Below are positions 8,235 through 25,637 of a stretch of 36,917 bases of DNA, piece after piece. Position 1 is the stretch's first letter. Every line of letters starts with the position of its first letter. The notes below the pieces were generated by a model that worked only from the letters and a program-made list of their open reading frames with translations, did not search any database and was not told the origin of the DNA. Source of the DNA: Sphingomonas sp. (GTDB lineage Bacteria > Pseudomonadota > Alphaproteobacteria > Sphingomonadales > Sphingomonadaceae); assembly GCF_019242355.1 (NCBI RefSeq), contig NZ_JAFAVR010000284.1:1-36917 (forward strand), in the 5' to 3' direction. The translations under genes and the position numbers were made by a program.

Positions 8235-8978
8235 ATGGCCGGCCATTCCAAATTCAAGAACATCATGTATCGGAAGGGTGCGCAGGACAAGAAACGGTCC
8301 GCGCTCTTCTCGAAGCTCAGCCGCGAGATCACCGTCGCGGCGAAGATGGGCCTGCCCGACCCGGAAGCGAACGCGCGCCTGCGCGCCGCGGTCATCGCCG
8401 CGCGCGCCCAGTCGATGCCAAAGGACAATATCCAGCGATCGATCGACAAGGCCTCGTCCGGCGACACCGAGAGCTATGAGGAGATCCGCTACGAGGGCTT
8501 CGGGCCCGGCGGCGTCGCGCTGATCGTCGAAGCGCTGACCGACAACCGCAACCGAACCGCCACTAACGTCCGCACCGCCTTCTCCAAGAACGGCGGCAAC
8601 CTCGGCACGGGCGGCAGCGTCAGCCACGGCTTCGAGCGGCTCGGCCTGATCGAATATCCGGCCAGCGCCGGGGACGCCGACAAGGTGCTGGAGGCCGCGA
8701 TCGAGGCGGGCGCTGACGACGTCGAGAGCGACGAGGGCGGCCACCGTATCTGGACCAGCATCGACAGCCTGCACGATGTTGCCCGCGCACTCGAGCCGCT
8801 GCTCGGCGAAGGGGAAGGCGCCAAGCTCGCGTGGAAGCCCTCGACCGAAGTCGAAGTCCGCGGCGACGAGGCCCAGACCCTGATGAAGCTCATCGACACG
8901 CTGGAAGAAGACGACGACGTCCAGACCGTCTGGGGCAATTACGACATCCCGGATGACGAGCTGGAGAAGCTGGGCTGA
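8235..8978 (+). CDS. yebC: YebC/PmpR family protein
   Basis: A 247-residue YebC family protein. Members have been described as DNA-binding regulators and more recently as ribosome-associated factors that help translation of proline-rich stretches, so the exact role here is open. The N-terminus [21 protein letters not shown] is diagnostic; the central [14 protein letters not shown] and [12 protein letters not shown] and the C-terminal ETLMKLID-type segment are also conserved. The neighbourhood with ruvC is conserved in many proteobacteria. Its stop TGA overlaps the proposed CTG start of ruvC, and its 3' end supplies the GGAG ribosome-binding site for that gene. Confidence 0.95.
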
Positions 8979-9466
8979 TCATTCTCGGCCTCGACCCTGG
9001 CCTGGGAACGACCGGCTGGGGATTGATCGAGGCTGAGGGGAATCGCCTGAGGCATGTCGCCAACGGCCAGCTCAAGACGGATCCAGCCGCGCCGCTTGCG
9101 CGTAGTCTCGCGCATCTCGCGGACCAGCTGGACGCGCTTCTCGCCGACCGCTGTCCCCACGCCGCCGCAGTCGAGGAAGTGTTCGTCAACACCAATCCGC
9201 AGTCGACACTGAAGCTCGGCCAGGCTCGCGGCGTCGCAATCATGACTGCCGCCCGTTCCGGTATCGACGTCGGCGAATATGCGCCGACGCTCGTCAAGAA
9301 AGCCGTGGTCGGCACCGGCAAGGCCGACAAGGCGCAGGTCCACGCCATGGTTGCGCGCCTGCTCCCTGGAGCGACGATCGCCGGCCCGGATGCCGCCGAC
9401 GCCCTCGCCGTCGCCATCACCCACGCCCACCACTTGGCGAGCAGGCGGGCTGGCATTACCCGTTGA
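8975..9466 (+). CDS. ruvC: Holliday junction endonuclease RuvC, proposed CTG start
   Basis: Resolves Holliday junctions as a dimer within the RuvABC complex. The predicted 163-residue protein begins [17 protein letters not shown] after the initiator and carries catalytic D7, a glutamate in [10 protein letters not shown], and the C-terminal acidic pair in [16 protein letters not shown]. The track starts at TTG 9023, which would remove D7 and the first beta strand. Upstream, the frame closes at a TGA at 8954, and the only non-rare candidates are CTG 8975 or an even less usual ATC 8978. CTG overlaps the yebC stop as CTGA and has GGAG with an 8-nt spacer, so it is chosen. Confidence 0.9.
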
Positions 9467-20506: not shown

Positions 20507-21505
20507 TCAATCGTCCTCATCCTCGTAACCTACCAAATTCAGCTCACACGCCTTGATCTGGTGGGTCATGCACCAGTGCTTGAGCGCTTCCTCGCGGCCG
20601 TGGGTGATCCAGACTTCGCTTGGCGCGAGCTCGCGGATCGTCATGGTGAGCTCGTCCCAGTCGGCGTGATCGCTGATGACCAGCGGCAGCTCGACGTTGC
20701 GCTGGCGCGCGCGCTGGCGGATGCGCATCCAGCCTGAGGCCATCGCCGTCACCGGGTCCGGAAGCCGCCGCGACCAGCGGTCGTTGAGCGCTCCGGGCGG
20801 GCAGATGACGATGTGACCGGCCATCTCCTGCTTGCTCGCGCCGGCGGTGTGGCGAAGCTCGCCCAAGGCCACGCCGAAGCTCTCGTAGAGCTGGTTCAAC
20901 CGCTCCATCGCGCCGTGGAAATAGATCGGCGCGTCGTGCCCGCGGGCGCGCAATTCGGTGATGATGCGCTGCGCCTTACCGAGCGCATAGGCGCCGACCA
21001 GGACGCATCGGCTCGGGTCGGAATGCAGGCGGTGGAGTAGCCGGTCGATCTCGCTGCCCGTGTCCGGGTGGCGAAAGACCGGCAGGCCGAACGTCGCCTC
21101 GGTGATGAAGATGTCGCACGGCACCGGCACGAAGCACGGGCAGGTGGGGTCGGGACGGCGCTTGTAGTCGCCCGACACCACGACCCGCTCGCCCTTGTGC
21201 TCCATTACGATCTGGGCGGAACCGAGCACATGCCCTGCCGGAACGAAGCGCACATCGACATCGCCAACGCGAAGGCTCTCGTCATAGGCGATCGGCTGCC
21301 CCGACTGCGGTCCGTAGCGCACGCCCATGATCGCCAGCGTCTCGGTCGTGGCCAGCACCGCGCCATGCCCGCCACGCGCATGGTCGCCGTGGCCATGCGT
21401 GACCCAGGCTCGGTCCTTGGGCTGCGACGGATCGATCCACGCATCGGCGGGGCGCACATAGATGCCCTCCGGGTGGGACTCGATCCAGGAACCCAATCGC
21501 GCCAT
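20507..21505 (-). CDS. Ligase-associated DNA damage response exonuclease
   Basis: Metallo-beta-lactamase/beta-CASP-type nuclease of 332 residues, a marker of the four-gene ligase-associated repair set (exonuclease, ATP-dependent ligase, DEXH helicase, PdeM). The metal motif THGHGDHARGGH is at 36-47 (H37, H39, D41, H42). AGHVLGSAQ, VVSGDYKRRPDP, FITEATFG and SDHADWDEL follow in the usual order. It diverges from the small membrane protein and helicase genes. A TATAGC -10-like element ends 5 nt before the ATG, so its mRNA may be leaderless. The ligase gene usually found beside it is missing. Confidence 0.9.
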   Translation of the reverse strand: MARLGSWIESHPEGIYVRPADAWIDPSQPKDRAWVTHGHGDHARGGHGAVLATTETLAIMGVRYGPQSGQPIAYDESLRVGDVDVRFVPAGHVLGSAQIVMEHKGERVVVSGDYKRRPDPTCPCFVPVPCDIFITEATFGLPVFRHPDTGSEIDRLLHRLHSDPSRCVLVGAYALGKAQRIITELRARGHDAPIYFHGAMERLNQLYESFGVALGELRHTAGASKQEMAGHIVICPPGALNDRWSRRLPDPVTAMASGWMRIRQRARQRNVELPLVISDHADWDELTMTIRELAPSEVWITHGREEALKHWCMTHQIKACELNLVGYEDEDD

Positions 21506-21521: not shown

Positions 21522-21571
21522 CGAAAGCGGGACAGTTCCCGTGCAGCCAGATCAATTCGGGAGGCAAAAGC

Positions 21572-21751
21572 ATGGACGAAACCACCCTTGGCATTGTCGA
21601 AATTCTCGGACCGGCGATCCTCCTGATCGTCCTCGTCTGGCTGGTCATGCAGCGCCGGTCGACCGGCAAGACCGGCCGCACCGAACAAGCCACGCGCGAA
21701 GGCTATGCCGAGGAAGAGGCGCGCCGACGCGAGGGGACCGACGAGCTCTGA
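21572..21751 (+). CDS. Small single-pass membrane protein, 59 aa
   Basis: An ORF too short for the track. It encodes MDETTLGIVEILG, then one membrane helix (about 14-26, AILLIVLVWLVM) and a charged cytoplasmic tail rich in R and E ending GTDEL. GGGAGG lies 7-8 nt before the ATG, a strong ribosome-binding site. Its stop TGA overlaps the proposed CTG start of the helicase (CTGA), and its purine-rich end GAGGGG would serve as that gene's ribosome-binding site. Function unknown. Confidence 0.75.
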   Translation: MDETTLGIVEILGPAILLIVLVWLVMQRRSTGKTGRTEQATREGYAEEEARRREGTDEL

Positions 21752-24156
21752 GCAGACTTCCCGAAGCCGTTCAAAGCTGGTTCGACGCCAAGGGATGGCG
21801 GCCGCGCCGGCACCAGCTGGAGATGCTGGAGCGCGCGCGGGCCGGACGAAGCGCGCTACTGGTCGCCGCAACCGGCGCCGGCAAGACGCTCGCCGGGTTC
21901 CTGCCCACCATCTGCGACCTCGCCGAGCGGCCCGCCGATGGGCTCCACACGCTCTACGTCTCGCCGCTGAAGGCGCTGGCGGTCGACGTCCAGCGCAATT
22001 TGATCGGCCCGATCGAGGCGATGGGTCTGCCGATCCGGGTCGAGACGCGCACCGGCGACACGCCGTCCGACCGCAAGGCGCGGCAGCGGCTGAAGCCGCC
22101 GCAGGTGCTGCTGACGACGCCGGAATCCTTGAGCCTGCTGCTGAGCTATCCTGACTCCGTGACGATGTTCGAAAGCCTGCAATCGATCGTCGTCGACGAG
22201 CTTCACGGCTTCGCCAAGGAGAAGCGCGGCGATTTGCTGTCGCTGTCGATGGCGCGCCTTCAGAAGCTGGCGCCCGGACTTCGCCGGGTCGGGCTGTCGG
22301 CGACGATCAGCGACCCCGACGCCTATCGCGGCTGGCTCGCTCCCAACGCGGACATGGAGCTGGTCGATCTTGTCATCGGCGATCCGGGCGCGGACCCGGA
22401 CCTGTCGATCCTGATCCCCGAGAACCGCATCCCCTGGGCCGGCCACAGCGGCCGCCACGCCGCGCGCGAGGTGATGAAGCTGATCGAGGCGCACAAGACG
22501 ACCCTCGTCTTCTGCAACACGCGGAGCCTCGCCGAACTGATCTTCCAGGACCTGTGGGCCGTCAACGACAACGCCCTTCCCATCGGCATCCACCACGGCA
22601 GTCTCGCGGTCGAGGCACGGCGCCGGGTCGAGGGCGCGATGGCCATGGGCAAGCTCCGCGGCCTGGTCGCCACCGCCAGCCTCGACCTCGGCATCGACTG
22701 GGGCGATGTCGATCTCGTCGTTCAGATGGGCGCGCCGAAGGGGAGCTCGCGCCTGTTGCAGCGCATCGGCCGCGCCAACCACCGGCTCGACGAGCCGAGC
22801 AAGGGGATCATCGTCCCCGGCAACCGCTTCGAATATCTCGAGGCCCGGGCCGCGCTCGACGCGATCGACGACGGCGAGCTCGACCCCGAAGTCTTCCGCC
22901 CCGGCGCGCTCGACGTCCTCGCCCAGCACATCCTCGCCATGGCCGTCGCCGCACCATTCCAGCAAGACGAGATGCTCGCCGAGGTTCACTCGTCGGCGCC
23001 ATACGCCGGTCTTAAGCAGGAAACCTTCGAGGAAATCCTGAACTTCATCGCGACGGGCGGCTATGCTCTGAAAGCGTACGACCGCTTTCGGCGGCTGGTC
23101 CCGGAAGCCGGCGGCCTGTGGCGGATCACCCGGCCGCAGATCGCCCAGCAACATCGACTCAACGCCGGCGTCATCGTCGAGCAGCCGCTGCTCACCGTCC
23201 GCTTCCGCAACGGCCGCAGCCTCGGCACAATCGAGGAAGGCTACGCCTCGACCCTGGCGCCCGGCGATCACTTCTTCTTCTCGGGCCTCAGCCTCGAGGT
23301 CGAGCAGTTCAAGGACACGGACGTCATCGTCCATGCTTCGTCGAAGCAGGCGCGGATCGTCACCTACGGCGGCCAGCGCATGTCGATGTCGACCCATCTC
23401 GCCAACCGCGTCCGCCACATGCTGTGCGACCGCAACGACTGGAGCCGCTTCCCAGCCGACGTCAGTGAGTGGCTGGAGGTGCAGTCCGAACGCTCCGTCC
23501 TCCCGGAACCACACCAGCTTCTCGTCGAGACTTTCCCGCACGAGGGCAAGTTCTACATGGTCGCCTACAGCTTCGAAGGCTGGAACGCGCACCAGTCGCT
23601 GGGAATGCTGATCACGCGCCGGATGGAGACGGCCGGGCTAAAGCCGCTCGGCTTCGTCGCCAACGACTACGGCCTCGCCTGCTATGGGCTGGAGCCGATC
23701 ACCGATCCGCAATCGCTGTTCTCGCCCGATATCCTCGAGGACGAGTTCGTCACCTGGGTCGAAAGCTCGATGCTGCTCAAGAATGCCTTTCGCGAGGTCG
23801 CGGTGATCGGCGGACTCGTCGAGCGCCATCATCCCGGCAAGAAGAAGACAGGGCGGCAGGTCAGCTTCTCGACCGACCTCATCTACGACGTGCTCCGCCG
23901 ATACGAGCCCGAGCACTTGCTGCTACGCGCCGCCTGGGACGATGCGCGGCGCCGAATGACCGAGCTGGGCCGCCTCGTCCGCCTGGTCGATCGCGCCTCG
24001 GCGACCATGCTCCACGTCGAGGTCGATCGGATCACGCCGATGGCCGTGCCGCTGATGGTCATCGTCGGCCGCGAAGCCCTCCCGCCGGGAGCCGAGGCAG
24101 ACGAGACCCTGCTTAGCCAGGCCGAAGCGCTGGCCCAGGAAGCCATGCAATTATAG
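21748..24156 (+). CDS. Ligase-associated DNA damage response DEXH helicase, proposed CTG start
   Basis: Lhr-like superfamily 2 helicase of 802 residues. A Q-like HQLEML is at 22-27, followed by Walker A ATGAGKT at 41-47, VSPLKALAVD, TTPESLSLLL, DELH at 150-153, VGLSATISDP, VFCNTRSLAE, HHGSL and the arginine-finger region QRIGRANHR, then the Lhr winged-helix and C-terminal domains. It unwinds DNA or RNA-DNA substrates in the ligase-associated repair pathway (family knowledge). There is no ATG, GTG or TTG between the preceding stop and ATG 21823, which would remove the Q-like motif. CTG 21748 overlaps the upstream TGA as CTGA and gives a standard family N-terminus. Confidence 0.92.
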   Translation: MSRLPEAVQSWFDAKGWRPRRHQLEMLERARAGRSALLVAATGAGKTLAGFLPTICDLAERPADGLHTLYVSPLKALAVDVQRNLIGPIEAMGLPIRVETRTGDTPSDRKARQRLKPPQVLLTTPESLSLLLSYPDSVTMFESLQSIVVDELHGFAKEKRGDLLSLSMARLQKLAPGLRRVGLSATISDPDAYRGWLAPNADMELVDLVIGDPGADPDLSILIPENRIPWAGHSGRHAAREVMKLIEAHKTTLVFCNTRSLAELIFQDLWAVNDNALPIGIHHGSLAVEARRRVEGAMAMGKLRGLVATASLDLGIDWGDVDLVVQMGAPKGSSRLLQRIGRANHRLDEPSKGIIVPGNRFEYLEARAALDAIDDGELDPEVFRPGALDVLAQHILAMAVAAPFQQDEMLAEVHSSAPYAGLKQETFEEILNFIATGGYALKAYDRFRRLVPEAGGLWRITRPQIAQQHRLNAGVIVEQPLLTVRFRNGRSLGTIEEGYASTLAPGDHFFFSGLSLEVEQFKDTDVIVHASSKQARIVTYGGQRMSMSTHLANRVRHMLCDRNDWSRFPADVSEWLEVQSERSVLPEPHQLLVETFPHEGKFYMVAYSFEGWNAHQSLGMLITRRMETAGLKPLGFVANDYGLACYGLEPITDPQSLFSPDILEDEFVTWVESSMLLKNAFREVAVIGGLVERHHPGKKKTGRQVSFSTDLIYDVLRRYEPEHLLLRAAWDDARRRMTELGRLVRLVDRASATMLHVEVDRITPMAVPLMVIVGREALPPGAEADETLLSQAEALAQEAMQL

Positions 24157-24201: not shown

Positions 24202-24483
24202 ATGAAGCGCATCCTTATCCTGCTCGTTCCCGTGCTCCTCAGCGGCTGCGTCGTCGAGACGGTCGCGAAGACCGCCGTCACCGCCGTCACCCTGCCGGTG
24301 AAGGCCGCCTCCTATGGAGTCGACAAGCTCACCACCAGCCAGGCCGAGGCCGACCGCAACGCCGGCCGCAAGCTGCGCAAGGAGGACGAAGAGCGCGGCA
24401 AGCTCTATCGCGACGCAATGGCGCGCTGCCGCTCCGGCCGCCCGCTGCCGACCGACGATTGCACCGGCGGAGCGCAGCGCTGA
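24202..24483 (+). CDS. Small lipoprotein
   Basis: A 93-residue protein with a lipoprotein signal: MKRILILLVPVLLSGC with lipobox LSGC and Cys16 as the lipidated residue. The remainder is short, basic and helical (KLRKEDEERGKLYRDAMARC) with two further cysteines. Role unknown. It separates the helicase from the RNase AS-like gene inside the repair island, and its final codons provide GGAG for the CTG start of that gene, with a CTGA overlap. Confidence 0.8.
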   Translation: MKRILILLVPVLLSGCVVETVAKTAVTAVTLPVKAASYGVDKLTTSQAEADRNAGRKLRKEDEERGKLYRDAMARCRSGRPLPTDDCTGGAQR

Positions 24484-24929
24484 GATATTTCCTCGACACC
24501 GAATATAATGGTGTCGGTGGGGCGCTGCTTAGCCTTGCCCTGGTCCCGGACGACGGGGACGATTTCTACCTGACATTGAAAACCGACGAGCCCATCTCTG
24601 AATGGGTCGGGCAGCACGTCATCCCCTACATGGACATGGTCCCTGAGCCTTTGTCTTGCCCGCGCCTGTCCCGGGATGATGCCGCCAAGGAGCTCGAGCA
24701 CTATCTCCGTCATGACGAGGAGCCGCTGATCGTCGCCGACTGGCCGGAGGATGTCGCGCAGTTCTGCAACCTCCTGATCACCGGACCCGGCGACATGGTC
24801 GAACTTCGCCACCTGACCTTCCGCCTGACCCCGATGAGCAATTTCAGCACCGCGGCGAACAGCAAGGTGCCGCACAACGCCCTCCACGACGCCCGCGCGT
24901 TTCGCGACCACGTCCTGTCGATGGAATGA
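24480..24929 (+). CDS. RNase AS-like 3'-5' exoribonuclease, proposed CTG start
   Basis: DEDDh-type exonuclease of 149 residues. The first motif is RYFLDTEYNG (D6, E8), the internal aspartate lies around IVADWPEDVAQF (D87), and the terminal motif is PHNALHDARAFRDH (H136, D137). It resembles the mycobacterial RNase AS family, which degrades polyA-type RNA. RYFLDTE is the family N-terminus, and no ATG, GTG or TTG can encode it: the next ATG is near residue 51. CTG at 24480 overlaps the lipoprotein stop as CTGA and has GGAG with a 7-nt spacer. Confidence 0.82.
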   Translation: MRYFLDTEYNGVGGALLSLALVPDDGDDFYLTLKTDEPISEWVGQHVIPYMDMVPEPLSCPRLSRDDAAKELEHYLRHDEEPLIVADWPEDVAQFCNLLITGPGDMVELRHLTFRLTPMSNFSTAANSKVPHNALHDARAFRDHVLSME

Positions 24930-24974: not shown

Positions 24975-25637
24975 ATGGTTCCCCTTTCGTTCGCAGGCGA
25001 AACGTTTCTCGCAACGGCAGAGGGCGCGCTGTTCTGGCCGGAGCAGAGCGCGCTGCTCGTCGCCGACCTGCACCTCGAGAAGGCGAGCTGGTTTGCGAGG
25101 CTCGGCCAGTTCCTGCCGCCCTACGATTCGCATGCGACCCTCGCGGCGCTGGCGGCGCAGGTGGAGCGCACCAAGGCGACGCGGCTCTACTGCCTCGGCG
25201 ACAGCTTCCACGATCGCTTCGGCTGCGACCGGCTTCCGACCAATGCGCGGGAGCTGCTCACCCGGCTGACGACGCAGCTCGACTGGATCTGGATCGTCGG
25301 CAATCACGATCCCGGCTTCGCCGATCATTGTGGCGGCCGGCTGGTGGATGAGGTCGAAATCGGCGGTATCATCCTCCGCCACGAAGCCGTTCGAGACGAC
25401 CCGGCTCCGGAAATCTCCGGCCATTTCCATCCGAAGCTCCGCCTCAACGTCCGCGGCCGCCATGTTTCCCGCCGCTGCTTCGTGAAGTCGGCGACCAAGA
25501 TCATCATGCCGGCGTTCGGTTCGTTGACCGGCGGGCTCGACGCGCATCATCCAGGCATCCTGGGCTCGGTCGGCAGCGGCGCTGCAGCGCTCGTTCCCGT
25601 GTCGGACCGGCTGTTGCGGTTTCCGCTCGCCGCCTAG
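24975..25637 (+). CDS. pdeM: Ligase-associated DNA damage response endonuclease PdeM
   Basis: Calcineurin-like metallophosphoesterase of 220 residues. Metal ligands are in ADLHLEK (D31, H33), CLGDSFHD (D76), GNHD (N110, H111), LRHEA (H136) and GHFHP (H150, H152). It belongs to the ligase-associated repair set with the exonuclease and helicase upstream. The ATG at 24975 begins with the conserved VPLSFAGE; the earlier TTG in the track adds an unrelated leader. The stop overlaps the convergent PabC-like fragment (CTAG, 4 bp). Confidence 0.92.
   Translation: MVPLSFAGETFLATAEGALFWPEQSALLVADLHLEKASWFARLGQFLPPYDSHATLAALAAQVERTKATRLYCLGDSFHDRFGCDRLPTNARELLTRLTTQLDWIWIVGNHDPGFADHCGGRLVDEVEIGGIILRHEAVRDDPAPEISGHFHPKLRLNVRGRHVSRRCFVKSATKIIMPAFGSLTGGLDAHHPGILGSVGSGAAALVPVSDRLLRFPLAA

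Follow-up and report, generated by a model that had tools for sequence, protein, structure and literature searches.

Termination-reinitiation is an established process at the overlapping stop and start codons of other gene pairs (Huber et al., 2019, PMC6728339). Bacterial starts at CUG have also been described, this codon being quoted as 0.024% of bacterial starts and reaching 0.86% of AUG efficiency in E. coli (PMC11497404). CUG starts and stop/start overlaps are thus already known, each separately. Here we consider both in the window, i.e., the whole stretch of 36,917 nucleotides analyzed (Sphingomonas sp., contig NZ_JAFAVR010000284.1, assembly GCF_019242355.1). It carries the gene of a ligase-associated DEXH box helicase which, judging from comparison with its relatives, is very probably translated from a CTG codon at position 21748. 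For a CTG start reached by termination-reinitiation, from the gene of a 59-aa membrane protein just upstream, we consider the case to be fairly good.

The helicase and its neighbors

The predicted helicase matched the family profile TIGR04121 with 1048.1 bits for a cut-off of 850, its residues 7-790 covering positions 2-797 of the 804 of the profile, and alignment with the solved helicases 5v9x and 7lhl begins at its residue 3. By this full-profile score it is a member of the family, and the helicase protein itself appears ordinary. Known ligase-associated DEXH helicase/Lhr-Core systems have an exonuclease, the endonuclease PdeM and an ATP-dependent ligase as partners. The window resembles them by its full-length TIGR04121 match and by the adjacent exonuclease and PdeM genes (Table 1). 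It differs from them by its ATP-dependent ligase (TIGR04120), which lies away from the helicase on another contig of the same genome (G000:C56:2428-4017), and elsewhere in the genome in relatives. This ligase was detected in 17/17 genomes tested and never adjoined the helicase.

Table 1. Positions of the features of the window, with the observations attached to each.
Feature	Position	Strand	Observations
ruvC	8975..9466	+	putative CTG start overlapping the stop of a yebC-like gene (TGA 8976-8978)
Ligase-associated exonuclease (TIGR04122)	20507..21505	-	divergent neighbor; 451.5 bits, cut-off 325
GGAGG, Shine-Dalgarno of the 59-aa gene	21560..21564	+	7 nt before ATG 21572; read from sequence
59-aa protein	21572..21751	+	one hydrophobic segment and a charged tail; from translation
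GAGGGG, Shine-Dalgarno-like	21731..21736	+	11 nt to CTG; not conserved
CTGA stop/start overlap	21748..21751	+	CTG, putative helicase start; TGA, stop of the 59-aa gene; read from sequence
Ligase-associated DEXH box helicase (TIGR04121, Lhr-Core type)	21748..24156	+	802 aa from CTG
First in-frame ATG	21823..21825	+	M26, within HQLEM; rejected as start (codons before HQ constrained)
Exonuclease-like gene (LRYFLDTEYN...)	24480..24929	+	putative CTG start in a CTGA overlap (24480-24483)
Ligase-associated endonuclease PdeM (TIGR04123)	24975..25637	+	218.9 bits, cut-off 150; start approximate

The 59-aa one-helix protein found no match in Pfam or NCBIfam. A hidden Markov model (HMM) built from 34 relatives nevertheless finds the small gene, at varying distances, ahead of the helicase in numerous other genera of Sphingomonadaceae.

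A probable CTG start of the helicase

The CTG (21748-21750) overlaps the TGA (21749-21751) which closes the 59-aa ORF opened at ATG 21572. The two genes are co-directed and the helicase is read in the -1 frame relative to the small gene. A preliminary description of this DNA had placed the start at this CTG, in overlap with the stop of the membrane protein, and had given 21823 as the next in-frame ATG; overlap and coordinate are both confirmed in the sequence. Upstream, in the open part of the helicase frame, the sole in-frame ATG, GTG or TTG is GTG 21541, located before the own start of the 59-aa ORF. A start at this GTG was rejected, being closed off by in-frame stops in relatives.

A lone CTGA can arise by chance, as the correct frame together with C in a wobble position is enough. 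The present junction is not a chance one, because the CTGA and the same upstream small gene recur in 34 of 38 same-genus species (36 relatives first searched, one found later, and the window). The helicase was found in all 36 relatives first searched, and its identity within the 38-species set goes down to about 70%. The genus as grouped here could be GTDB Sphingomicrobium, the records of the relatives saying Sphingomonas. The HMM of the small protein was built from these same 34 sequences, so that their match to it describes one shared family and is no independent test. S. arenae, S. edaphi (strain DAC4), S. rubra and S. metalli are named isolates carrying the CTGA junction. In the more distant S. 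rubra (L267) and S. metalli (L281), at ~70% identity, the small gene overlaps at CTGA with no canonical start nearby. More generally, 22/38 species present no ATG, GTG or TTG from the nearest in-frame stop to the conserved HQ motif. For example, the helicase frame of relative G017 reads TGA-CGC-CTG-ACG-CCG-CTT-CCC, and with an in-frame TGA so close upstream the CTG is the only plausible start apart from ACG.

The same recurrence bears on a sequencing or assembly error, the true base being A or G or an indel distorting the frame. The preliminary description had named a false C as a possible refutation, and the window does come from a 287-contig draft assembly. However, the C is present in 34 genomes, the same CTGA standing in 33 genomes other than that of the window, several of them single-contig. 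Since the CTGA recurs in this way, such an error is already refuted, and we give it practically no weight.

Four species lacked the junction. In G013 no small gene was detected at the junction and the helicase would start at GTG or ATG; in G024 the small gene ends at TAA, with a TTG or ATT start; in G003 it ends at TAG, without a canonical start. In G007 (L018), where the small gene ends in CTC TGA, this end and the helicase frame are out of register, and the likely start is an in-frame ATG farther upstream, inside the small gene. Within the other 34 species the C of the junction is invariant, although it is preceded by seven different last codons. This could suggest selection holding C rather than A or G, and is no more than suggestive, because conservation is almost as high at some ordinary wobble positions: 3 of 29 four-fold-degenerate columns of the helicase also show C in 33/35.

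Could translation begin instead at ATG 21823, the codons upstream being an untranslated leader? This is the first in-frame ATG, and its M26 is nearly invariant in the aligned orthologues. However, the 18 codons before HQ gave, over 35 species, a pN/pS of 0.53 in the helicase frame, and either shift of the frame raised it (to 1.18 and 1.19), so that constraint is seen in the helicase frame only. An alignment of 12 orthologues, one of which comes from another family, shows no change at six residues upstream of M26 (L4, P5, W11, W17, H22 and Q23). Also, the TIGR04121 profile begins just before the LP motif, residue 7 of the protein falling on profile position 2, and canonical starts lie upstream of LP in other genera. 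From this constraint, the segment before ATG 21823 is taken to be part of the helicase protein, and ATG 21823 is therefore rejected as the start. A start there, the other refutation foreseen in the preliminary description, is contradicted by the constraint and the invariant residues and is extremely unlikely. The case for the CTG thus draws on the conserved codon and junction, on the in-frame stops just upstream in relatives and on the protein constraint from the CTG to ATG 21823.

The start codons of homologues, whose comparison had been proposed as a check, agree with this placement. The CTG sits three codons before the LP motif, and an ATG, GTG or TTG stands exactly three codons before LP in about 30 of 80 relatives (counted by eye in a table of named or metagenomic records, some of them genomes already in the other sets). 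Among 60 loci, taken with few exceptions from other genera of the family, the helicase has a canonical start in nearly all, G096 (L139) being without one. In the loci examined, a small gene that is missing at the junction or stops at a greater distance usually goes with a canonical helicase start. This association of CTG with the overlap would be the main support, of an indirect kind, for translational coupling.

Possible routes to the CTG

We propose that ribosomes load on the 59-aa gene through its GGAGG Shine-Dalgarno and its ATG. Having halted at the UGA, a ribosome would stay on the mRNA and step one base back, which would bring the CUG into the P site, and the helicase would then be begun in the -1 frame. 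As the ribosome would be already placed, a start codon as weak as CUG could be tolerated. The first residue of the helicase would presumably be formyl-methionine, and the likely effect would be that helicase output is low and follows translation of the small protein. The reinitiation route, the coupling and the low output are what we infer from sequence comparison. Co-directed genes with overlapping stop and start codons are what was found, as CTGA, in 34/38 species. The weakness of CUG leaves two readings: a low output may be intended, or CUG may be acceptable to a reinitiating ribosome.

The CTG might also be reached by fresh initiation, at the GAGGGG or at an unstructured site, the overlap merely saving space. 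The preliminary description had pointed to GAGGGG 11 nt upstream. The motif is indeed present in the window, and the anti-Shine-Dalgarno energy is -6 or better in about 13 of 35 species. However, it is not conserved in relatives, and the energies before the CTG (35 species) are no better than those of shuffled sequence (mean -4.59 vs -5.21 kcal/mol). The site thus probably does not owe its function to Shine-Dalgarno recognition. In E. coli, moreover, CUG performs very poorly when translation begins afresh (PMC11497404), and CTG occurs mainly where a stop overlaps. We consider fresh initiation to be unlikely. As GAGGGG is not conserved, termination explains the placement of the ribosome better than Shine-Dalgarno binding does, an argument of little weight because no enrichment of anti-Shine-Dalgarno energy was found before the small gene either.

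A -1 ribosomal frameshift near the stop, fusing the 59-aa membrane protein to the helicase, would fit the geometry, given the -1 position of the helicase frame relative to that of the small gene. However, reading by eye of the junctions of 35 species gave no X-XXY-YYZ slippery heptamer. In G017 the codon that follows the CTG has an in-frame stop two codons ahead of it, which leaves almost no room for a shift, and relatives elsewhere have separate canonical helicase starts. Such a fusion appears very improbable, and termination-reinitiation remains the route that we prefer.

An altered initiator tRNA was considered as a cause and rejected. The anticodon-arm sequence is the same in members of the genus and in outside genera, and therefore does not explain a habit of the genus. 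The arm gave no match in the draft genome of the window (G000), and a stricter pattern gave no match in any genome searched.

CTG starts in other genes and comparison with described systems

According to the preliminary description, the helicase was not alone in starting at CTG, and two more genes of the window bear this out (Table 1). For ruvC, the start codon across the genus is CTG, ATG, GTG or TTG at the same position, with CTG in other genera too. Of 23 loci of the genus, 21 have ATG or GTG at the start residue of the exonuclease-like gene at 24480, and the genome of the window and G015 have CTG there. This exchange of CTG with ATG, GTG or TTG at one residue is the best evidence for the use of CTG as a start codon in Sphingomonadaceae. 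Further CTGA starts were checked by hand in a gene of G021 and G029 (LS..RLP.H.E), in a short-chain dehydrogenase-like gene of G021 and in a methyltransferase-like gene of G007, the family names being given by eye. Also, an FtsE-like gene of G014 (L085, 15061-15796 of the joined 400 kb) apparently starts at CTG (CTGT) with no stop/start overlap, an in-frame stop lying five codons upstream of the CTG. From this gene, CTG starts may not necessarily be limited to overlaps.

Overlaps between homology-supported ORFs numbered 28 for ATGA, 16 for GTGA, 7 for TTGA and 24 for CTGA, in a screen that omitted ORFs below 100 aa and hence the helicase pair itself; in over half of these 24 CTGA overlaps a canonical codon lies at most three codons downstream. 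A tally of start columns gave 384 ATG, 102 GTG, 43 TTG and 13 CTG, visible miscalls included. The estimate of CTG starts from 4 x 400 kb of relatives is noisy, because alignments run into non-coding frames, and only the hand-checked cases were used. We tentatively hypothesize, as a possibility that we hold with more doubt than conviction, that reinitiating ribosomes of Sphingomonadaceae accept CUG regularly, CTGA being a standard overlap beside ATGA, GTGA and TTGA, and that selection keeps the CTG of the helicase for a low output tied to the small protein.

Prodigal is a gene finder limited to ATG, GTG and TTG. Gene finders that ignore CTG will truncate or misplace such starts, and in the window the HQ segment of the helicase would be lost. 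CUG is deemed nearly useless as a start in bacteria. In most species of a genus, however, a repair helicase appears to have it fixed as its start, and it returns in ruvC and other conserved genes, usually where start and stop overlap. These loci would offer a natural system for testing whether termination-reinitiation makes start-codon choice less strict.

In the open-access literature searched, we found no paper on CTGA overlaps, nor any CTGA overlap kept genus-wide and recurring in several gene families. Like the four-base overlaps of the ATGA type (Huber et al., 2019, PMC6728339), the helicase junction joins co-directed genes through four shared bases, with the downstream gene in the -1 frame. 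It differs from them in that its putative start is CTG and not ATG, GTG or TTG, and in that its coupling is putative; the text of that study contains no mention of CTGA or GTGA. Like the rare bacterial CUG starts (PMC11497404), it would have a CUG beginning a protein. In contrast to those cases, one gene keeps its CTG in most species of a genus, and other genes have such a start too, for the most part at overlaps.
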